Source: a virus
Virus record (IMG/VR): IMGVR_UViG_3300030385_001096
Location: 1-22,463 of that record
DNA: 22,463 bases
Direction: 5' to 3' (one strand)
Under the pieces are notes generated by a model. That model saw nothing but the letters and a program-made list of their open reading frames with translations. It was not told the DNA's origin and did no database searches. Shown piece after piece: positions 9,014 to 20,523 of this stretch (positions are counted from its first letter, which is position 1; the number at the start of each line of letters is the position of its first letter). Position numbers and translations under genes: made by a program.

Positions 9014-11512
9014 ATGCCCAAAATAAGTGATTTCATTGGTCAGATTTCTGATGCTGACGCTGGTGATTTACCGCCGGGCGCAGCTATAAGCCAGAAGAAT
9101 GTCAGTACCACCTCTGCGGGGAAGCTAAGGGTCCGTGGCGGTATGCAGCCTGCCACTTTTACGTCTACTACCACGATCTCTGCAAGCAGTTACCACACAT
9201 TTCAGCGCATGTGCTTCTGTAAGACCCGTCAGGGGGACTTGATTGGTGTTAACGGTATAGAGCGGGGCTTTCGCTGGGATGGCGCAACGACGAACGTGGA
9301 GGCTCTGGGGATAACTGCCCCTGCTTTGGCTCCGGCGATTGCCAGTGCGTTTATTGATACCAGCGACAAGGGCCGGGACATTTCCGGCATTGTGACCAAC
9401 AGCGGGAAGTACAAAATAACCAGCACTGGCTCTCACGGCCTGTCTAACGGTGACGTAGTACGACTTGGCAACGTGGTTGGTACAGGGTCTATGGCAAATG
9501 ACCTCAATGGTCAGAGTTTTACTATTGAGAGTGCGTCAGGCAGTGTATTTACCCTAAGTGATACGGTTTTTGATGGTGTTTATACATCGGGTGGAACATG
9601 GAGCCAGGACGGGTTTGGGGCGACGGCTGGGGATTATGTTTTCGGCTATCGTTACATTGACGACACAACAACGGCTGTTCCTAGCAGTTTAACCGGACTT
9701 ACAAAGATAACGGCCTTGGAGAACGATGACTTTACCTGGTCATCTTTATCTACAACGACAGAAGCACGGGGTCAGTACAAACTTGAGCTATTTCGCAGCA
9801 CGGCGGGTGTGACGAATGTTCTGTTCAAGGTGGCGACGATTGCTTATGGGTCTATTGGGAGTGGTTTCACCGACGAGGTGGACGATGTAACTTTGAACTT
9901 GAGTAGTGCTTCGGATGTCCTGCTTGTTTTGTCGAATCCGCCGGTAGATAACAGCATTGTAGCCCGCCGGTTTGAAGTTCCGCCGAATGACAGGCCGGTG
10001 GTTGTCCAGTTTCAGGACAGGTACTTCTATTTGGGGACGGTAAAGTACAACCGGGGAACGGTTGCGGCCAGTGGCACGGCTATTACGGGTAACGGCACTG
10101 ACTGGGTTTCCACGATGGTGGGGCGATATATTGAGATTGCCGGTCAGACAGCACCCCGGAAGATTACGGTTTTCAATTCGGCCACGTCCCTGACTGTGGA
10201 CGCATCGACTTCGGCATCTTCTGGTACGTCATATACGATTGTGCCGGAGCAGAGTAACCGCCGCCAGGTGGATTTCAGTGAGCCGGACGAGCCAGAGAGC
10301 GTTCCGGCGGTAAATGTCTTCACTGTGCAGGAGTCTGCCAATGACGACGACGACATCATTGGTGCGATGCCTCTTGGATCGTCCCTTTTCCTCTTTGGAA
10401 AGCGGAACAAGTACGCATTTTCCTACTCGGTGCTACCCACGGTAGACGGGAGCGTGCGGTACGTGGAGGATCGGGGCGTATTTAACCATTTTTGCTGGGA
10501 TGTGTACGAAAATGCGGCGTACATGATGGATGACTCTGGGCCTTACATTTTCTCTGGTGGTGGATCGCAGGAAATCGGTGCCCAGATACAGGATTTATGG
10601 CGAAAAGACGGTGACGGCGACAAGCTAGATTTCACCAAGACGGACCAGTTTCATGTCAAAGTGGACAGGGCCAAAAACAGGGCTTATTTCTTTGTTTCCT
10701 TCATAGGAGACAGCGGCAGTTACCCCACACGGGCTTTGGTCTATAACATCAGGCGCAAGACGTGGGATAACTACGAGTTTCCCCAGATGATTGGCTCTGC
10801 CGCCACGATTCAGATTAGCGGAGAAACCCGCACCGTCTTTGGGGCTGAAGATTCCAACATTTACATTGCTGACAAGGGCAATACGGACGTTGTGACAGCC
10901 GAGGTCACGGGTACGGCAACAGGATCGGGCAGTACAACGCTTACGGACTCCGGGGCGAGCTTTGCGGCGGCTGTTATTGGTTCCAGCGTGTACATTTACG
11001 AGGGAACGGGCAAGGGTCAGCGCCGCACGATCACAGCGAGGACGAGTACGCAGCTTACGGTCGCCGCATGGACGACAAACCCGGACACGACCAGTAAGTA
11101 TGTGGTTGGTGCCATTGAGTGGAACTGGAAATCGAAGGCATTTGGTTTTCCAGAGGATGATATTCGCAATAAGCGGGAAGTGTCGATTGATTTCAAGCCT
11201 ACGACTGGCGACCAGCGTATTGATGTACGGTTTTACTACAATCACAGTTCAACGCCGCTGGCGAATGCGATGTCCCAGAAACTTGGGGATGCGGTGGAGA
11301 TTCAGGAGACAAACAAGGAAGATGCGGTTGTATTTATGAAGCTGGCCCGGAGTGCGCTGGAAGATTCAGTGGGCCGGGAGAAGTTCCGCTTTGACGGGAT
11401 GTATAGTTCGACATCCCACGGCGACCATGAGGTTTCAGTGGAATTGCGTGGCTATGCGGCTGATGATGTGCCTGAGATCAAGAGCATTACGGTCGAGGGG
11501 GTGGAGGAGTAG
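9014..11512 (+). CDS. Tail hub / gp10- or tubular B-like structural protein
   Basis: An 832-residue beta-rich protein with a body resembling the short-tail nozzle or hub proteins of podoviruses. The start has the N-terminal pattern A-G-D-L-P-P-G-A-A-I-S-Q-K-N-V and L-R-V-R-G-G-M (17-44), typical of proteins that thread around the tail. Propeller-like strand pairs follow (F-Q-D-R-Y-F-Y-L, S-L-F-L-F-G-K-R-N-K, A-L-V-Y-N-I-R-R-K-T-W-D-N-Y, 574-587). Three extra modules are seen: about 131-197 (an FCCH-like G-K-Y-K-I-T-S-T-G-S-H-G-L to Y-T-S-G-G-T-W), 347-410 and 627-698. ATG at 9014 lacks a clear Shine-Dalgarno and follows the upstream stop by nine bases. Overall a tail structural protein with good confidence; the exact homologue is uncertain. 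Confidence 0.65.
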   Translation: MPKISDFIGQISDADAGDLPPGAAISQKNVSTTSAGKLRVRGGMQPATFTSTTTISASSYHTFQRMCFCKTRQGDLIGVNGIERGFRWDGATTNVEALGITAPALAPAIASAFIDTSDKGRDISGIVTNSGKYKITSTGSHGLSNGDVVRLGNVVGTGSMANDLNGQSFTIESASGSVFTLSDTVFDGVYTSGGTWSQDGFGATAGDYVFGYRYIDDTTTAVPSSLTGLTKITALENDDFTWSSLSTTTEARGQYKLELFRSTAGVTNVLFKVATIAYGSIGSGFTDEVDDVTLNLSSASDVLLVLSNPPVDNSIVARRFEVPPNDRPVVVQFQDRYFYLGTVKYNRGTVAASGTAITGNGTDWVSTMVGRYIEIAGQTAPRKITVFNSATSLTVDASTSASSGTSYTIVPEQSNRRQVDFSEPDEPESVPAVNVFTVQESANDDDDIIGAMPLGSSLFLFGKRNKYAFSYSVLPTVDGSVRYVEDRGVFNHFCWDVYENAAYMMDDSGPYIFSGGGSQEIGAQIQDLWRKDGDGDKLDFTKTDQFHVKVDRAKNRAYFFVSFIGDSGSYPTRALVYNIRRKTWDNYEFPQMIGSAATIQISGETRTVFGAEDSNIYIADKGNTDVVTAEVTGTATGSGSTTLTDSGASFAAAVIGSSVYIYEGTGKGQRRTITARTSTQLTVAAWTTNPDTTSKYVVGAIEWNWKSKAFGFPEDDIRNKREVSIDFKPTTGDQRIDVRFYYNHSSTPLANAMSQKLGDAVEIQETNKEDAVVFMKLARSALEDSVGREKFRFDGMYSSTSHGDHEVSVELRGYAADDVPEIKSITVEGVEE
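9404..9604 (+). other. FCCH-like beta module in tail hub protein
   Basis: Encodes residues about 131-197. It has the recurrent tail-protein pattern K-I-T-S-T-G-S-H-G-L-S-N-G-D-V-V followed by L-N-G-Q-S-F-T-I, V-F-T-L and Y-T-S-G-G-T-W. From general knowledge this resembles small beta modules that recur as insertions in phage tail proteins. Confidence 0.5.
10052..10243 (+). other. Beta module C in tail hub protein
   Basis: Encodes residues about 347-410: G-T-V-A-A-S-G-T-A-I-T-G-N-G-T-D-W, V-G-R-Y-I-E-I-A-G, and A-T-S-L-T-V-D then S-Y-T-I-V. It resembles the module at 10892-11107 and the one in the adaptor-like gene, with the same order of strands and a matching T-x-L-T-V element. Confidence 0.5.
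10892..11107 (+). other. Beta module D in tail hub protein
   Basis: Encodes residues about 627-698: V-T-G-T-A-T-G-S-G-S-T-T-L-T-D-S-G-A-S-F, V-I-G-S-S-V-Y-I-Y-E-G-T-G-K-G-Q, S-T-Q-L-T-V, and D-T-T-S-K-Y-V-V. It has a typical recurring phage tail-module look and is inserted between propeller-like strands. Confidence 0.5.
11503..11512 (+). promoter_or_regulatory. Shine-Dalgarno inside the end of the tail hub gene
   Basis: GGAGGAG at 11503-11509 is followed by the TAG stop (11510-11512) and directly by ATG at 11513. The stop and start codons are adjacent, so translation of the collar/fibre protein is probably coupled to the hub protein. Confidence 0.7.
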
Positions 11513-12497: not shown

Positions 12498-14165
12498 ATG
12501 GTACACATGAAACAACCACGTCCTTCGGCCATTCAGGGAGATACGGCGGCATTATTCCAGGGAATGACCCCTGAACAGACGCAAATTGTACAGCGACTCC
12601 TGGGTGGCCAGCAGGGTGGAGATGTCATTTCACCTTTGCTTACTCCGGGGCTGGAGAATGCTGGTGGCGATTTATTTATTGATGGTGATCCTGAAAGACC
12701 TGAATTACCTGAGCCGATACAACCTCCAGAAACCGAGGTGCCAAGCGAACGTGACGGATACGGTATAGACACGGATGGCGACGGAGTGCCGGACAATGTC
12801 GACTGGGATCCCAATGATCCTGACATTACGGAGCCGCCACCTATTACGGAGCCGCCACCACCAACTCCGACTCCAGATCCAATTCCACCACTTCCAACTC
12901 CATATCCATATCCATATCCATATCCGGGTACGCCAGGTCCAACGGGTCCGACGGGTGCAACGGGTCAAACGGGTCAAACGGGTGAGCCAGGTGAGACGGG
13001 GCCAGCAGGGACAGGTGGTACTGGCAGCATATCTAATATTGCGACGGCTACTGCTACCGGCGGTGCAGGTGGTGCGGGTGGTGCAGGCGGTGCGGCTGGT
13101 GCTGGCGGTACTGGCGTCGGGGAGGGCGGTGTGCTGGCGGGAATCCAGGGTGGCATTCACTTCAACATGGGTAATCCTGCCCAGCGTGCTGTTGATGTGA
13201 CGATGGATGCCTATGACCAGTACCAGCAGGCGCTACTCGACAAGTATTATGCGGACACTCTCAGGGATCTTGGGATGGCTGCCTTGGGCGGTGGTGCTGG
13301 CGGTGGTGGCGATACCGTTGGTCCGGTTGGCCTGTTTAATCGGGTTACTCAGGGTGGTGGCCGTTACCAGCAGCCTGATCCTGTATTAGAGAAGAAGCGA
13401 CGAACTCGGCCTCCAAAACAGCCCAAGAATCCTCGTCGTGATTTTCCGATACTGCCTTCGACTATGACGTCAGCCCTTGGCGGTGAACCTACGGAAGGCT
13501 TGGATGAGCCTTTGGCGGATGTTGCTGCTGTAGAGCAGGATGGTTTTGATGCAGGCCAGTTCGTCAGTGAAGTACAGGCTGATGTAGCGGGTTTCCGACC
13601 ACCGACCCCTCCGAAGCCAGAAGATGACTGGGACAAGGGGGATACGAAAAAGTACCTAAAGGAATTGCAGGGAAGTGGCGTGGTTGCTGATCCTGGCCCT
13701 GGGGGGGCCAAGCTGACTCTTGCTAATCGAAGGGCTTTGGATTCACTTCAACAGAGGCCGCCGAAAATAGAAAAGCCTGGCCCTATTTATAATCAGGGGC
13801 CGCAGATGAGGCACGTGGGAGGCGCGCCACAGCCCCCTTGGCCGCAGTCCCCGAAAGCCGCAGCACCTTCGGCTTTAGATAGTCAGATGGCTGACATTAT
13901 GGGTGGTGCAGGTGCGCCGTTGGGTGGTCAGCTTGCCGCTCAGATTAACAAGCAGGGTCAGGAGAATGAATTCCAGAACCTTGCTACGGCAGCCAGCCGG
14001 GGGCAGGACATTGCTCAGGCTACCTACGGCCTCAAGGGTCAGGAGCGATCCCTTGCACAATCGCAGGATCAGTTCCGCCAGCAGAAGGCACAGGATGTCA
14101 TGGCTAACCTTGCGAACAGGCGAGGTCAGCGGAGGCCGAGGACGAGCGTGAGAGTGCAGGGATAA
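12498..14165 (+). CDS. Multi-module low-complexity protein with Ca-loop-like and collagen-like segments
   Basis: A 555-residue protein with these segments in order: a Gln/Gly-rich start with helix (T-P-E-Q-T-Q-I-V-Q-R-L-L); an acidic loop D91-T-D-G-D-G-V-P-D-N-V-D-W-D-P-N-D-P-D (91-109) like thrombospondin type 3 calcium loops; Pro-rich stalk with Y-P repeats (110-143); eleven Gly-x-y triplets (144-176); an Ala/Gly-rich run (187-213); a helix (A-V-D-V-T-M-D-A-Y-D-Q-Y-Q-Q-A-L-L-D-K-Y-Y); a long Pro/Lys linker; and a Gln-rich helical C-terminus ending in a basic tail. The C-terminal helix resembles that of the next protein. ATG at 12498 follows AGGGGA. It is inferred to be an extended virion or tail protein; no enzymatic motif is seen. 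Confidence 0.65.
   Translation: MVHMKQPRPSAIQGDTAALFQGMTPEQTQIVQRLLGGQQGGDVISPLLTPGLENAGGDLFIDGDPERPELPEPIQPPETEVPSERDGYGIDTDGDGVPDNVDWDPNDPDITEPPPITEPPPPTPTPDPIPPLPTPYPYPYPYPGTPGPTGPTGATGQTGQTGEPGETGPAGTGGTGSISNIATATATGGAGGAGGAGGAAGAGGTGVGEGGVLAGIQGGIHFNMGNPAQRAVDVTMDAYDQYQQALLDKYYADTLRDLGMAALGGGAGGGGDTVGPVGLFNRVTQGGGRYQQPDPVLEKKRRTRPPKQPKNPRRDFPILPSTMTSALGGEPTEGLDEPLADVAAVEQDGFDAGQFVSEVQADVAGFRPPTPPKPEDDWDKGDTKKYLKELQGSGVVADPGPGGAKLTLANRRALDSLQQRPPKIEKPGPIYNQGPQMRHVGGAPQPPWPQSPKAAAPSALDSQMADIMGGAGAPLGGQLAAQINKQGQENEFQNLATAASRGQDIAQATYGLKGQERSLAQSQDQFRQQKAQDVMANLANRRGQRRPRTSVRVQG
12901..12925 (+). repeat. Six-base CATATC repeat
   Basis: Four head-to-tail CATATC units, the last running on into the following C, encode P-Y-P-Y-P-Y-P-Y-P. 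The repeat sits just before the collagen-like segment and is probably a stiff or extended stalk. Confidence 0.75.
12927..13025 (+). repeat. Collagen-like Gly-x-y repeat, 11 triplets
   Basis: Eleven consecutive triplets starting with Gly (residues 144-176), such as G-P-T, G-A-T, G-Q-T, G-E-P and G-P-A, with one triplet having Gly in an extra position near the end. Phage tail fibres are known to carry collagen-like triple helices, which give trimers. The run is short but uninterrupted at the Gly positions. Confidence 0.75.
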
Positions 14166-14166
14166 C

Positions 14167-17100
14167 ATGACTAGCTATGCTCCGAATTACAAGCGTCCAC
14201 GTCAGCCGAAGACGGCTCGCGTTCGTGGTGGCGCTGCTGGTAGCCAGACGGCGGTGAGTAATCTCCCCACCCCGAAGCAGCCGTCTTCTTACAAGAATCC
14301 TGTTACGCCTGCATCTCCTCTTACGTCTTCGCTTTACGGGACCGGGCCTACTACGACCCCTAACTCCATTGTGCCCACAACCGGTGGGGGTCAGGCCCAG
14401 TCTTTTACAGGTGCCCTTGGTGGCAATATGACTGGCTGGAAAGCTGGCGATAAGTCCAATGTTGCCCAGAAGACGCCCGGCGGCATCCCCGGAATGGATC
14501 AGCAGCCTGGCGGAGTGCCGGGTATGAACCAGCAGCCGGGTGGAATGCCGGGTATGCCACCACAGCCTTCAATTAGCCCTTCGCCTACGACTTCCATGAT
14601 GCCCCCTCAGCCTTCAGTGCAACCGTCTCCACGGACGGATCAAATGTACGGACAAGGGACTGCTCTACCGTCACAGGTTCCACTAACACAGGTTCCATCT
14701 GTTTCTACGGCGGACTTTTATCCTGATCCACTGGCACCGGGAAATCTTCCGGTTATGCCGACGAATCCTATCCAGGCTCACATGACTCCCGATGAGTTGG
14801 AAACTGTAGGGCCACCGAGGGCAGAGTTTCCCACCTCGTATGAGCCAACAGTGAGGCAGGCAGCAGCAGCGCAGCCCTTGGGTCAGGCTCTTACTGGCCA
14901 GGAGCCAGCAGCGCAACCGGCAGCAGCGGCGGCACAGCCACTAGGGTCAGCGCTTACTGGCAAGCAACCAGCAGCCCCCTCGTATGTGTCTTCCATGCAG
15001 GCAGCACCAGCCAAGGCAGCACCAGCAAAGTTCTCGCCATATCAGGTGGCAACCCACAAGCGTTCTAAGGCAAAGAGAGCCGTTCGAGAGAGTTCAAAGA
15101 GGCTTCGCTCGTTACGGGGAATGAGTTCTCGGCGAAGGGCGGAGGAGATGTCTAAGCACAGGGCATTGCAGGCAGCATCGCGGAGCGCTGAGGCGGACTT
15201 CCAGCGTATCACCCAGCAGAGGGAACAACAGCAACCGGCTGCCGTCCAGCCTGCCGTTGAGCCTGCCGTTCAGCCTGCTGTGGAGCCTGCCGTTCAGCCT
15301 GCTGTGGAGCCTGCCGTAACCGAGCCAGTCGCCGAGAAGCCCCGATTTGCAGAGGTAGGCGAAGCTGCTATGGAGGAGGAACCTGCGAAAGCCTTTAATG
15401 TCAGTGATTGGGAAGAAGCTCCTCGCATGGCTGGGGTCCGAACTCGATACTTCGTAAACAAGAATACTGGCAAGAGTATGACCCGGCGGCAGTTTGTTGC
15501 GGCGCAGCTACCAGAGAAGGCTGTCACACCAGCAGTGAGTCCAGCCCCCGTCAAGGCGGAGGAGAAGGCCGCCCAGCAACAGCAGCAGGGATATGACCCA
15601 AAGCGTATGCGAGGCGTTTATGGGAAAAAGCCGAAGATATTGCAGAAGTTGAGGGACATTGAACGGAAGGAACCGGCTGACAAGTGGGAGAACTTTGACT
15701 GGAAAAGCAAGATAGACCCTAATAAGGAATATCTCTATGCGGGGACAGAAAAGGTTACAGGCAAGTCAATCATAATGATGCACGACTGGGGGCTGGGTAT
15801 TGACCTGTTGAAGGATGACTTGCGGCTTACCACAAACATTGATGGTTCAGTTTTATATCCTGCTGACGAGGAGTTTGAAGCGGTTCCGCAGGCAAAAGCT
15901 CCGACGCCACCGACGATAGAGGTGCAGCAGGCGTGGGAGGATCAGGGTGGCAAGGGACTTGCCCCGCAGGGTTGGCAGTCGGGTGCTGCTGTAGAGCAGC
16001 CTGTTGTTGAAGGGCAGCCTGCTACAGCGGCAGAGGGCGTTATTCGTCAGGACTCAATTGCACAGGAGGTGCCGGGCGAGGAGGCCGCTGCCCGACCTGC
16101 ATGGAGTAAGCAGGCGGAATGGGAGGCCGCAGGGCATAAGGGGGAAGCCCCGGCATATTTCGGCGGGGCAGGCAGTTGGGAACAATACGATGAGTGGCAG
16201 GCTAGTAGAGAACAGAAGCATAAGGATATCAGGTCTTCTCAGGCGGAGACGTCGCGGACTGAAACGGCAGAGCGCGAGGAGAGAGGGGCTGCTGTACGAG
16301 AGGAGAGCCCTTGGATAACGGAGGCTTTCCCCCGCGCCACACTCAAGACTGGACAAGGCACAGAATACGAGGGTGTGGACTTTAAGAATCTGGACGGCCT
16401 GTCTGTAGACCAGCTTGACTCCATCATGGGTATGGATGATGACGAGCTAGAGGATGCCCTCGGTGGCCTCAAGGGGGAGGTATTGTACAAGCGTGGCAAT
16501 AATGCCAGGCAGGCGAAGGCGTCGGCGGAGTTAGAGAAGATACGTCGGAGCGAGGCTCCCGATAAGTGGGAGAAGACGGACTGGCAAGCCACGATTCAGG
16601 ATGACCAGAAGTACATCTTCCGAGACTCATCTGGAGACACGAACGAAACCACGGGCAAGTCTGTGAAGATGATGGCTGGCATGGGCCTGAACATGGACAT
16701 GATGAACGACATCTTCCGTCTTCTCAAGAACGAGGATGGCAGCTATGTATTCCCAACCGAAGGGGCTCCCGCAGCGGAGAAGCCTCGCTTTGCAGAAGTA
16801 GGCGAGGCAGCTACCCAGCCACCAGAGGAAGCACCTGTACCAGACGCACCGGCACTAGAGGAAGCTGTACAGCCCGCAGTACAAGAGGACGCTGTACAAC
16901 CCGCAGTAGAGGAGAAGCCTGGAGAGACAGGCTGGATAGCACCGGAGAAGGGCAGGTTCGCAGAAGTAGGAGAGGCGGCAACAAAGGATTCCGACGCAGA
17001 ATTCAGGGCGCTTATTGCGTCTGGCAAAAACTTTACTGCGGAAGACTTAAAGCGTTTTGGTAAGACCTCCAGAGATGTGTTGAAAGTGGCTACGACTATA

Positions 17101-18144
17101 AATGCTCACAAAAGATGGAAGGAATGGCAGGCTTCACAGCCACCAGCACCCACACCTCCTGTCGTTCCAGACCAGCCACTGCCACCTGTTGAACCGCCCG
17201 TTCAGCCACCCGTTCAGCCACCAGTGCAGCCGCCTGTGGAACCGCCAGTACAGCCACCTGTTGAGCCACCAGTACAGCCACCAGAGGTTCCGCCAGAGGT
17301 TCCGTCGCCGGAGCTACCCGTTCAGCCTGATCAGCCACCTGTAGAACCACCAGAGGTTCCGCCAGAGGAACCCGCCGTGGAGCCAGATCCTACCGGGCTT
17401 GACAGGGAGATCACACTGCCGGATGGGAGGGTAATGGCATTAAGGGATGCACTTAATGAACTGTATGGATATTCCCAACAGCAGCCGGGTCAGCCTATTG
17501 TAGCTCCGCCCGGTGGCCCAGGATCGCCAGACGAAGGTTATCCCATCCCCGAAGCCCATTTGCCCGGCTACTATGACTCTGGCCCCGGCATTGGTCCCCC
17601 GGCACCACCCAAGCCTCCAGAGGATGAGGACGAGGATGGCTGGCCAGATCCATTGCCGGGTGGTGTTCCCCCGGAGGATGTTCTGGATGAGGAGATTGGC
17701 ACAAGGAATGTCATTGAGGTAGACCCCGGTATTTCGAGAGAGTTTATCACTCAAAGGGGAGAGAACCCCCAACTAGAAGCAAACCGCCGTATTGCAGAAT
17801 TGTTCCAGCAATCCGGACCTATGCAGAAAAGCCTACTAGGTCAGGCAGGCCGTGGCATGGCGGCAGACGTGGGCACTCGCAGCCGGTATGGACTAGCGCC
17901 GATGGCACAGGCTATGCTTGGGGCACGGCAGGCACAGACCATGATTCCGTGGCAGCGGAACCTTGAGCAGGCTCAACAGGAGCGAGCGAAAATGCAACGA
18001 GCCCATGAGATAGGCTTACAGCAGGCGCAGATGATAGGCGCGGATTACAACGAGCAGGCGCGAATTAAGTTACAAGAGCAGCAGCGACGATGGGGTTTAG
18101 TCCAAACCCTATTAAACCCCTTATTGTCCAGGCGACAAGGCTAG
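14167..18144 (+). CDS. Giant mosaic disordered protein with duplicated unknown domain
   Basis: A 1325-residue protein, mostly low complexity. Order: Pro/Gly/Met/Gln-rich N-terminus with three P-G-G-x-P-G-M repeats (104-130); A-Q-P-L-G-x-A-L-T-G twice (235-244, 256-265); a basic helix (297-350); A-V-Q/E-P repeats (359-382); first F-A-E-V-G-E-A (394-400); a Y-F-V-N-K-N-T-G-K-S patch (428-437); unknown domain copy 1 (about 487-573); Trp-rich stretches (589-603, 646-677); an acidic helix (735-767); copy 2 (about 779-867); F-A-E-V-G-E-A again (874-880, 931-937); P-V-Q/E-P repeats (1007-1038); an acidic linker; and a Gln/Arg-rich C-terminal coiled helix (1262-1308). No catalytic motif is recognised. 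Its location after the fibre gene suggests a virion, perhaps internal, protein. Confidence 0.75.
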   Translation: MTSYAPNYKRPRQPKTARVRGGAAGSQTAVSNLPTPKQPSSYKNPVTPASPLTSSLYGTGPTTTPNSIVPTTGGGQAQSFTGALGGNMTGWKAGDKSNVAQKTPGGIPGMDQQPGGVPGMNQQPGGMPGMPPQPSISPSPTTSMMPPQPSVQPSPRTDQMYGQGTALPSQVPLTQVPSVSTADFYPDPLAPGNLPVMPTNPIQAHMTPDELETVGPPRAEFPTSYEPTVRQAAAAQPLGQALTGQEPAAQPAAAAAQPLGSALTGKQPAAPSYVSSMQAAPAKAAPAKFSPYQVATHKRSKAKRAVRESSKRLRSLRGMSSRRRAEEMSKHRALQAASRSAEADFQRITQQREQQQPAAVQPAVEPAVQPAVEPAVQPAVEPAVTEPVAEKPRFAEVGEAAMEEEPAKAFNVSDWEEAPRMAGVRTRYFVNKNTGKSMTRRQFVAAQLPEKAVTPAVSPAPVKAEEKAAQQQQQGYDPKRMRGVYGKKPKILQKLRDIERKEPADKWENFDWKSKIDPNKEYLYAGTEKVTGKSIIMMHDWGLGIDLLKDDLRLTTNIDGSVLYPADEEFEAVPQAKAPTPPTIEVQQAWEDQGGKGLAPQGWQSGAAVEQPVVEGQPATAAEGVIRQDSIAQEVPGEEAAARPAWSKQAEWEAAGHKGEAPAYFGGAGSWEQYDEWQASREQKHKDIRSSQAETSRTETAEREERGAAVREESPWITEAFPRATLKTGQGTEYEGVDFKNLDGLSVDQLDSIMGMDDDELEDALGGLKGEVLYKRGNNARQAKASAELEKIRRSEAPDKWEKTDWQATIQDDQKYIFRDSSGDTNETTGKSVKMMAGMGLNMDMMNDIFRLLKNEDGSYVFPTEGAPAAEKPRFAEVGEAATQPPEEAPVPDAPALEEAVQPAVQEDAVQPAVEEKPGETGWIAPEKGRFAEVGEAATKDSDAEFRALIASGKNFTAEDLKRFGKTSRDVLKVATTINAHKRWKEWQASQPPAPTPPVVPDQPLPPVEPPVQPPVQPPVQPPVEPPVQPPVEPPVQPPEVPPEVPSPELPVQPDQPPVEPPEVPPEEPAVEPDPTGLDREITLPDGRVMALRDALNELYGYSQQQPGQPIVAPPGGPGSPDEGYPIPEAHLPGYYDSGPGIGPPAPPKPPEDEDEDGWPDPLPGGVPPEDVLDEEIGTRNVIEVDPGISREFITQRGENPQLEANRRIAELFQQSGPMQKSLLGQAGRGMAADVGTRSRYGLAPMAQAMLGARQAQTMIPWQRNLEQAQQERAKMQRAHEIGLQQAQMIGADYNEQARIKLQEQQRRWGLVQTLLNPLLSRRQG
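15241..15312 (+). repeat. A-V-Q/E-P tandem repeat, six units of 12 bp
   Basis: Six 12-base units encode alternating A-V-Q-P and A-V-E-P (residues 359-382). This is a flexible or polyproline-like linker that leads into the first F-A-E-V-G-E-A motif. Confidence 0.8.
15625..15885 (+). repeat. Unknown domain, copy 1 in 1325-residue protein
   Basis: Residues about 487-573. Shared features with copy 2, in order: a charged helix, P-A-D-K-W-E-x2-D-W, K-I-D-P-N-K-E-Y-L-Y, T-G-K-S-I-I-M-M, L-G-I-D-L-L-K-D-D-L-R-L, and N-I-D-G-S-V-L-Y-P. The domain family was not recognised. Confidence 0.75.
16501..16767 (+). repeat. Unknown domain, copy 2 in 1325-residue protein
   Basis: Residues about 779-867. It mirrors copy 1: A-P-D-K-W-E-x2-D-W, I-Q-D-D-Q-K-Y-I-F, T-G-K-S-V-K-M-M, L-N-M-D-M-M-N-D-I-F-R-L, and N-E-D-G-S-Y-V-F-P. 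The linker before T-G-K-S is a few residues longer. Protein-level similarity is clear, but the DNA has diverged, so the duplication is old. Confidence 0.75.
17185..17280 (+). repeat. P-V-Q/E-P tandem repeat, eight units of 12 bp
   Basis: Eight 12-base units encode P-V-Q-P or P-V-E-P (residues 1007-1038), followed by P-E-V-P variants to about 1064. Low-complexity linker DNA of this kind is prone to length change between relatives. Confidence 0.8.
18092..18120 (+). other. Two mutually exclusive hairpins at the end of the giant gene
   Basis: GGGGTTTA at 18092-18099 can pair perfectly over eight bases with TAAACCCC at 18113-18120. It can alternatively pair over six bases (GGGTTT 18093-18098 with AAACCC 18104-18109). 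The element lies inside the coding sequence, 24 bases before the stop and just upstream of the next ribosome-binding site. No U-tract follows, so it is not a standard terminator. A role in mRNA processing or coupling is possible, and chance is also possible. Confidence 0.35.
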
Positions 18145-18156
18145 AGGAGAAGAACA

Positions 18157-20523
18157 ATGGCAAATGATCCGCGATTTCCACCTCGTATATCGGGTCCAGA
18201 CCATAGGGCTTTGGAGTCCAAGGAGTTTTCCCAGAACAGTATACTTGATAATCTGCGGAAGCTGGGCTACATGTCCCCACGAGGTGCCTCGTCGCGTGGT
18301 GGTCCCGGTGTACCTGAATTTGCCGCCACAGATGAGTTTCCGCTGCCAAAATTCGACGATTACATGGATAAGGCGAGGGCACAGAACACGAGGGCCATGA
18401 CTCCACAGGCTCTTGCGGAATGGGAGCAGGGTATACTGGATTCTGAGGAACGCCACAGGCAGTCAGTTATAAACAGGATGCCTGTTAATCCCATAATTGG
18501 ACAACTAGCGGACCATCAGCGGGCTTCATCGCCGCTGTCCCCGGAGGAGCGTATCCGGCTTTCGGCAAATCCCGAAGGATTCCCCCCTCGCGGCAGTGGC
18601 GTTCTTCCATCATCCGATGCGGACCTTCAGCGGGCTCGCCAGCTTAAGCTGGAACACCAGCTTGAAGTGGCTCGCGGCCAATCAATGGACGCTGGCAGGA
18701 ATGCACCCCAACTGCGGGAGACTATGGAGGGTGCAGACCTTGCCTTAGCTGGACCGGATGCCAAGCAGGCTCAACTACGTTCAATGGGTGAAGATACGAT
18801 TCGCCGCATTAAAGAGCAGGAAGCTGCTGCGCGTACCCAGCGTGACGTGGACTATGAGGAAGGTATTCAGCGTGGGATGGAGCGTAGTGCGGGGTCAACG
18901 GCGGACTTCATTAAGCGGAAAGAGCTTGAGGAGGGTGGCCGTCCGGTAGGGGTAGCCCCGGCGATCAATGTTCGGACACCAGAGGGTGACTTCGAGGAGT
19001 TCACGGAGGGCGAGGCTTTGTACGACCCTCGCAAGTGGGAGCCGAAATTCTTCTTTGATTCTACTGGTCGCCCACGCAGGCACATGGTGAAGAAGCGACA
19101 AAGATCGCTTGAGTCGGCCCACAAGCCTCGGGGAAAAGAGCCTCCCATTGAGTCGAAGTCACCCCTCGCCGAGGCATGGGGCGAGGACTTGGACACTATG
19201 GACCCTCGGGACATTTCGGATATAAACCCATTTGGCGAGGACGAGGATGCCACGAGCCCCGGTGCAGGGCTGTCGATGGACGAGGTGTTTGACCAGACAC
19301 CCCTGTCTACAGGTGAGGAGGCAGCGTCAGGCGACACCCCACAGGCAGTTGCTCTACAGCCAAGCGATGACGACCAACTGGTTGCTGAGGGAAAGCCATT
19401 TTCTATGTCGCAAGAGCCAGTAGTGGGTGAGGAGCGCAATGTAGATGCAGAGATGGATGAGTGGATGGATACGGAGGCCGGTCGGGTGGCAGCCGGCGCG
19501 GGCAGATTCTTCGGCGATGCTGACCCTCGGGATAGTCGGGATGCTGATCTTGAGGACACTATAGCCGCTGATGCCATTAAGGGTGGCTTGGAGGGGGCAG
19601 GCGAGGAGGTTGCAGATGCCACGCCCTTCCGTGACCCAGCGGGTGTTGCCGAGACACGGGAGGATGTTATCCGTCGACTGGGTGGTATGCCTAGAGAGTT
19701 TGGGGATATGGGTCTTGTGGATGAGGGGCCGACTGAGGAGCAGTTGAGGCTGAGGCAGGAAACCGCAGAGAAGCGGTCAGAGCAAAAGGATGAGGCTCGG
19801 CGGTTGCGCATGATGCGGAATCCACGGTATCGGAAGCATAATATCCAGCCGGGAGAGTTCCGCTACACTCGCACTGGTGACCCGAAGGCGGATGCAGCTA
19901 TTGCGTCGGCTATGGTTCAGGCTATGAGTGCCAGGGACAAGTCAGCAGCAGATTATCGAACCAACCTAATGCGTGCGGAGGCCACTAAGCAGGGCTTTGA
20001 GGAGTCAGGCAAACAGTTGGATGTGGGGATGAAGTACAAGATGGTAGATGCTTTGATCGCGAGGCTTGCCGATCCAAACCTCGGCTATCAAGACCGAGTG
20101 TCTATTCGGCGTCGACTTAAAGTTCTTATGGCAGAGCTATCCGGCACGAAAGATCCCGCCGGAGGCGAACCTGACGACGCTGGCGTCCGGGTTCCACCGA
20201 ACGAGGCGAGGCAACAGCTAGAGCAGGAGGATTCCTCCCTTCTCACTAGGCTTGATACTTTGGTGGAAAAGACCAACTCCTTTTTTGGGTTGAAGATTGT
20301 GGGGCCGGGCGGACCGCTGAGTGGAAATTACTTGAAGGCGGTAGTAGAGGGTGAATTGCGGAGCATGGTAGATTCTGGTCTTATTAACGAAAGGAATGTG
20401 GCGGCTACTGGCAGTTTGTTAGCTTCTCGCTTTGATAGTAAGGCGACGCAAGCTATGTCGAGCCTGTCACCAGAGGATCAGACATTTTTACGCAATCTGA
20501 TGAATGGGGTTTTGCCAGAGTAG
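18157..20523 (+). CDS. Large charged protein of unknown function
   Basis: A 788-residue hydrophilic protein, largely predicted by eye as helical or disordered. The start at 18157 is well supported by GAGGAG at 18144-18149. The N-terminus is Pro/Arg-rich. Residues about 155-260 form charged helices (L-Q-R-A-R-Q-L-K-L-E-H-Q-L-E and D-T-I-R-R-I-K-E-Q-E). A short beta-looking patch includes F-F-F-D-S-T-G-R-P-R-R-H-M (298-310). An acidic disordered middle (about 330-540) is rich in D, E and G. A basic Arg/Lys helix follows, and then a more hydrophobic C-terminus (F-F-G-L-K-I-V-G-P, L-K-A-V-V-E-G-E-L-R-S-M-V, N-L-M-N-G-V-L-P-E). No known domain is recognised. It sits between two large virion-type genes, where podoviruses have internal core or ejection proteins; that role is inferred. 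Confidence 0.7.
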   Translation: MANDPRFPPRISGPDHRALESKEFSQNSILDNLRKLGYMSPRGASSRGGPGVPEFAATDEFPLPKFDDYMDKARAQNTRAMTPQALAEWEQGILDSEERHRQSVINRMPVNPIIGQLADHQRASSPLSPEERIRLSANPEGFPPRGSGVLPSSDADLQRARQLKLEHQLEVARGQSMDAGRNAPQLRETMEGADLALAGPDAKQAQLRSMGEDTIRRIKEQEAAARTQRDVDYEEGIQRGMERSAGSTADFIKRKELEEGGRPVGVAPAINVRTPEGDFEEFTEGEALYDPRKWEPKFFFDSTGRPRRHMVKKRQRSLESAHKPRGKEPPIESKSPLAEAWGEDLDTMDPRDISDINPFGEDEDATSPGAGLSMDEVFDQTPLSTGEEAASGDTPQAVALQPSDDDQLVAEGKPFSMSQEPVVGEERNVDAEMDEWMDTEAGRVAAGAGRFFGDADPRDSRDADLEDTIAADAIKGGLEGAGEEVADATPFRDPAGVAETREDVIRRLGGMPREFGDMGLVDEGPTEEQLRLRQETAEKRSEQKDEARRLRMMRNPRYRKHNIQPGEFRYTRTGDPKADAAIASAMVQAMSARDKSAADYRTNLMRAEATKQGFEESGKQLDVGMKYKMVDALIARLADPNLGYQDRVSIRRRLKVLMAELSGTKDPAGGEPDDAGVRVPPNEARQQLEQEDSSLLTRLDTLVEKTNSFFGLKIVGPGGPLSGNYLKAVVEGELRSMVDSGLINERNVAATGSLLASRFDSKATQAMSSLSPEDQTFLRNLMNGVLPE

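Follow-up and report, generated by a model that had tools for sequence, protein, structure and literature searches.

A duplicated small domain and short repeated tags in a mosaic virion-region protein of podovirus-like uncultured phages

In podoviruses, internal virion proteins are encoded to the right of the tail-tube genes, and theirs are the genes with the greatest divergence and mosaicism (PMC10386132). Ejection proteins are mosaically modular, and the homologues of T7 gp14 and gp16 keep membrane-spanning elements (PMC8954989). The window analyzed here, meaning the whole stretch of DNA under study, is a virus record of 22,463 bases from a podovirus-like uncultured phage. Its genes run in the order TerL, P22-like portal (Pfam, above cut-off), proteins of 393, 832, 324 and 555 residues (the last termed g555), the mosaic protein P0001, a protein of 788 residues and a giant protein, encoded two genes downstream of P0001, of which the window holds the start. 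The terminase matches PHROG 2 (E 3e-17), and in a relative, G001, the MCP gene is seen upstream of TerL. The strongly conserved 393- and 832-residue products are probably encoded by tail genes, and the 324-residue product has a weak tail-protein match. With these probable tail-tube/hub genes on its left, the P0001 gene holds the place that internal virion protein genes have in podoviral virion clusters, and this gene position, together with its evolutionary style (PMC10386132, PMC8954989), makes it fit an internal virion protein. We favor, at a probability of about 0.5, a minor virion protein, most likely internal and of the ejection type, in which a constant C-terminal anchor carries a flexible arm with exchangeable modules. 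Two neighboring products have features of their own: g555 (window 12498-14165), whose gene precedes that of P0001, carries collagen-like G-x-T repeats (GPTGPTGATGQTG...), its G008 counterpart having GPSGPTGPSG repeats, and residues 137-198 of the 832-residue protein (window 9014-11512) give a sub-threshold Pfam E1_FCCH match (E 6e-5).

Table 1. Features of P0001 and its neighbor gene in the window, with dockerin-like segments of related phages
Feature	Position	Strand	Basis
P0001, mosaic protein, 1325 aa	14167..18144	+	ORF; 1539-aa orthologue; composition
FAEVGEAA tag 1, residues 394-401	15346..15369	+	PSSM, codons
Module B candidate, ~residues 410-452, DWEE..YFVNKNTGKS	15394..15522	+	weak; block insertion
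Domain A copy 1, residues 487-573	15625..15885	+	self-BLASTP, profile; AlphaFold pLDDT 87.6, pTM 0.73
Module E copy 1, residues 584-607, WEDQGGKGLAPQGW	15916..15987	+	HMM, blastp
Second tag type 'AAEGVIRQDS', residues 620-630	16024..16056	+	PSSM scan
Module E copy 2, residues 646-669, WEAAGHKGEAPAYF	16102..16173	+	HMM (seed included)
Helical element before copy 2, ~residues 748-776, 'LSVDQLDSIMGMDDDELEDAL'	16408..16494	+	upstream blastp extension; model
Domain A copy 2, residues 779-867	16501..16767	+	self-BLASTP, profile; AlphaFold pLDDT 78.2
FAEVGEAA tag 2, residues 875-882, just after copy 2	16789..16812	+	PSSM, codons
FAEVGEAA tag 3, residues 931-938	16957..16980	+	PSSM, codons
Proline-rich repeat PPVQPPVEPP in P0001	17191..17316	+	sequence, blastp, composition
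C-terminal core, residues 1175-1325 (NPQL...AGRG...GT...IPW)	17689..18141	+	conservation, profiles
Neighbor gene, 788 aa (g788), low complexity	18157..20523	+	adjoins P0001 gene
Dockerin-like segments (DINGDGYVTPADSL)	L097 15209-18664, L099 12025-16803, L100 12000-16148, L124 1395-4067, L125 1160-4198

P0001 consists of a long arm rich in Pro, Ala, Gln and Glu with embedded modules, followed by a conserved C-terminal domain, and by composition large parts of it are of low entropy. A first-pass annotation, made from the sequence alone, had proposed that the arm holds two copies of one domain, here called domain A, and the two are indeed homologous far beyond chance. In self-BLASTP with a low-complexity filter residues 482-681 pair with 776-991 (E = 5.6e-13), and the local score of the copies is 165 against a shuffled mean of 26.6 (SD 5.0, maximum 54 in 2000 shuffles; z = 27). 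The shared motifs that had been listed were located in both copies, at P0001 residues 505/799 (DKWE), 531/829 (TGKS) and 559/857 (DGS); a third TGKS, at residue 434, belongs to a different small segment, which is no domain A copy. A reading of TGKS as the Walker A motif of a P-loop NTPase was rejected, as the GxxxxGK[ST] spacing misfits in both copies, and G018, G020 and one copy from G008 have lost the K/S. The two copies share 38% of their residues, synonymous sites between them being near saturation, and copy 1 is 75% identical to the domain A copy of G012, so that the duplication predates the split from G012. Both are retained in a relative whose neighboring genes are 71-98% identical. The helical element ahead of copy 2 also precedes domain A in G012, G018 and G020, and appears in the AlphaFold model, at modest confidence, as helices 15-22 and 26-33.

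The family was described at first sight as unfamiliar, and the profile search returned no characterized family. Searches of Pfam, PHROGs, NCBIfam, PDB sequences, PDB folds, BFVD, GenBank phages and plasmids gave nothing significant for domain A; a literature search for the motifs found nothing relevant, and a scan of prokaryote genomes with P0001 and TerL gave no match. Two candidate identities were set aside: PARP (Pfam E 0.0048, two members), whose catalytic domain is far longer than 87 residues and which is absent with full proteins, and DUF6432 (E 0.02), under its cut-off. Within the collections searched, all relatives come from one podovirus-like group of uncultured IMG/VR contigs, with 13 copies in 9 contigs, the window counted. 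The iterated profile finds 11 distinct copies, three of them in G008, and a whole-contig scan adds weak matches in G023 (E 0.002) and G026 (E 4e-4). On inspection, both of these show the W, an S/L-G-K-S/T-hydrophobic-K-D-M segment and a D-x-x-G-R-x-x-F end; after inclusion they score E 4e-27 and 5e-29, values that include these sequences themselves. The terminase of the window matched 65 IMG/VR contigs, and five virion-region queries from the window found no GenBank phage. As a positive control, a helicase of the same phage group matches 1696 records, which shows that the GenBank phage search works. Domain A is a small family that the reference libraries searched do not contain; its fold is predicted with confidence, and the phage group that carries it is large, uncultured and without a recognizable isolate among GenBank phages.

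Copy 1 was modeled with AlphaFold from 11 homologues (five models, pLDDT 85-88) and copy 2 together with its upstream segment (about 82-92 over the domain part). The order of elements is the same in both models: a helix, a short helix after the invariant Trp, a beta-hairpin, two helices and a short final strand. Prediction of single copies, proposed at the outset as a check, thus indicates that copies 1 and 2 agree in fold, and the models support the view that they are the best-folded units in the middle of P0001. The first-pass annotation had gone further, taking them for the main folded units in otherwise low-complexity surroundings; this holds for mid-protein and, in part, for the surroundings, and fails for the last 150 residues, which form a conserved domain, and for the several smaller repeated modules and tags. 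Foldseek searches with the domain A models gave no match in PDB or BFVD at E <= 0.001. The small beta-hairpin plus helix, and the presence of Pro-rich sequence in the same protein, recall the GYF domain, a binder of proline-rich peptides, and the copy 2 model drew two weak GYF matches (probability 0.11 and 0.03). An identity with GYF was rejected, since GYF is absent among the matches of the better copy 1 model and has no Pfam or PDB sequence match.

The C-terminal core is conserved in G001, G008 and G012 and is the most widely kept part of P0001. In G018/G020 a profile built from these three and the window picks it out as a gene of its own (E 3e-6), which directly follows the domain A gene and lies just ahead of the giant gene. 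With iteration, its equivalents in G021-G024, G026, G029 and G030 are recruited too, and where examined these again stand just ahead of the giant gene; the iterated E-values include the recruited sequences, and the shared synteny is independent support. As a separate gene in other lineages the core has 213-328 aa. A single match of 46 residues to an RdRp chain (E 0.0012) was taken as chance. Among the giant proteins, those of L098 (14980-19836) and L103 (14740-19470) start with twin-arginine-like motifs (NRRTFLKNAG and NRRDFLKKTG), and in Pfam the L098 protein matches TAT_signal weakly and DUF7831 strongly.

The one close orthologue of P0001, on IMG/VR contig 3300032138_000016, has 1539 aa; syntenic proteins occur in G012 (1905 aa), G008 (2584 aa), G018 (1238 aa), G020 (1278 aa) and G034 (partial, 1209 aa). 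A comparison of the window with G001 shows insertion or replacement of entire modules within flanks that are 80-99% identical. Besides the P0001-type proteins, domain A is carried by a second backbone, that of the G018/G020 proteins, which has only the domain A region in common with P0001 and is otherwise homologous to proteins without domain A in G021, G022, G024, G029 and G030. The third backbone is that of the 890- and 1012-aa proteins of G026 and G023, which match neither of the others except in a dockerin-like stretch. All three sit in late virion gene clusters, the G026 gene in a same-strand run leading into head genes and TerL. The occurrence of domain A in three unrelated backbones indicates that the module has moved between virion-region genes, and from these comparisons it appears that the phages use it repeatedly as a mobile part of the virion.

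The dockerin-like stretch consists of EF-hand-like segments that resemble the type I dockerin calcium-binding repeat and occur in several related virion-region proteins, including both the G023 and the G026 domain A proteins. Three proteins give sub-threshold Pfam Dockerin_1 matches (best E 0.0015); the segment is a different module from domain A and is absent from P0001. Other small segments were noted in these phages. A Hint/intein-like segment (CLVGSTPIATPDG ... VYSHNK), seen by eye within a proline-rich protein (L100 10872-11993), may be intein-like and not a splicing intein, given the Lys after its terminal Asn. A short module, FWAGDxSxGIPGEWDHL, is common to the otherwise different small proteins L094 4809-5795 and L124 4083-4841.

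Short tags and small modules make up further parts of the arm. Counting close variants, the FAEVGEAA tag has 13 instances across the mosaic proteins of the window, G001, G008 and G034; one more lies in the product of the gene that follows in G008 (708 aa). PSSM scores of the tags are 25-35, against a best shuffled score of 15.6. Most codons of the tag vary synonymously, with xCA kept at codon 2 and GTA/GTT at codon 4; selection on the peptide is likely on this codon evidence, recent copying being an alternative. The second tag type (E-E/G-I/V-I-R) is frequent in the G012 homologue. Module E is duplicated both in the window and in G012; its HMM of three seeds scores E 2.5e-11 on copy 1, itself a seed, and the region is matched by blastp between G012 and the window at E 0.004. 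Module B is a weak candidate, with leave-one-out E-values from 0.007 to 0.63 over seven proteins, and segments like it are clean insertions between the window and the G001 orthologue; its identity with the core of domain A was rejected (hhalign probability 0.7%). In a close relative (L001 10001-14620), residues ~490-610 hold three tandem units of ~40 residues (AGIIRK-G-WVQGTPEE), which replace window residues 411-474.

Low entropy over large parts of P0001 might suggest a non-adaptive or falsely called low-complexity ORF. This can hardly be credited: the 1325 codons are open and are kept in the 1539-aa orthologue, domain A and the C-terminal core are conserved across contigs, and dN/dS is below 1 in all regions of P0001 but one short segment (1.08, 12 changes). 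Between the window and G001 the ratio is 0.13 for copy 2 and 0.55 for copy 1, on the small numbers of 3 and 18 changes. Judged by its comparison with the G012 copy (dN 0.15, dS 0.44, dN/dS about 0.34), copy 1 is under purifying selection. The main rival to an internal protein, because collagen-like and tail genes adjoin, is an external tail-associated fiber or adhesin, with the core on the tail, the Pro-rich arm pointing outward, the modules binding the host surface or partner fibers, and host range driving their turnover. The tail-protein match of the 324-aa gene upstream, the proline-rich repeats and the fast block turnover of modules in P0001 are all consistent with a fiber, as are the collagen-like repeats of g555, such repeats being more usual in fibers. 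We consider a fiber possible, if unlikely, given that no trimerization, collar, lectin or spike domain was detected in P0001 or its homologues. Its constant C-terminus and variable N-terminus are, moreover, the reverse of the arrangement in podoviral tail fibers (PMC10386132).

The tags raise two further readings. P0001 could be a head assembly or scaffold-like protein in which the FAEVGEAA repeats serve as prohead-protease sites or capsid-packaging signals during maturation: the tag is repeated, contains Glu followed by Ala, and is common to the next G008 gene product, and in T4-type and SPN3US phages prohead proteases cleave behind motifs with a terminal Glu, AXE in SPN3US (PMC7411985). This is improbable in our estimation, for 2 of the 14 tags have Asp in place of the Glu at residue six, no close tag is present in the domain A proteins of G012, G018 and G020, and no prohead protease was recognized among the head genes examined. 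Alternatively, domain A might bind the FAEVGEAA tags on disordered arms of several virion proteins and so build a multivalent internal network; if true, domain A would be a dedicated, mobile virion adaptor, and a tag-and-reader network would organize the particle interior of this phage group. A domain A copy with a tag close behind it occurs in the window, G001, G008 and G034, another tag lies in the neighboring gene product of G008, and tags were seen only in contigs with domain A. Against this, the proteins examined in G012, G018, G020, G023 and G026 have domain A and no canonical tag, and we think such a network rather unlikely.

We return to the favored reading of P0001 as a minor, most likely internal virion protein, which would be incorporated into the particle and reside in its interior. 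The constant part, a helical C-terminal domain of 150 residues, probably attaches P0001 to either the portal/tail or the giant protein, and the long flexible arm ahead of it would string together small folded modules and short tags that are exchanged by recombination. Domain A, as a small alpha-beta-beta-alpha-alpha-beta adaptor, probably binds another virion or host component, and the tags may also have a binding role. Hydropathy gave no membrane segment in P0001, its neighbors or the giant protein, which makes a gp15-like or auxiliary role likelier than a pore-forming one of the gp14 or gp16 kind; a gp15-like role needs no membrane-spanning segments. P0001 would then illustrate how a virion protein evolves module by module, its C-terminal domain staying constant while small domains and tags pass from protein to protein. 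It offers a handle on the fast divergence of podoviral internal proteins, as well as a short tag testable for binding.

Compared with known systems, P0001 resembles T7 gp14/15/16 and P22 gp7/16/20 in gene position, divergence, mosaic build and a giant partner encoded nearby. It differs from these ejection proteins in having no membrane segment and in matching none of the known ones by sequence or profile, whether in Pfam, PHROGs or the other profile searches, and the run of genes from g555 to the giant protein likewise matched no known ejection protein in Pfam or PHROGs. What further sets P0001 apart from the T7 and P22 ejection proteins is its long Pro-rich arm, with its repeated small domains and tags.
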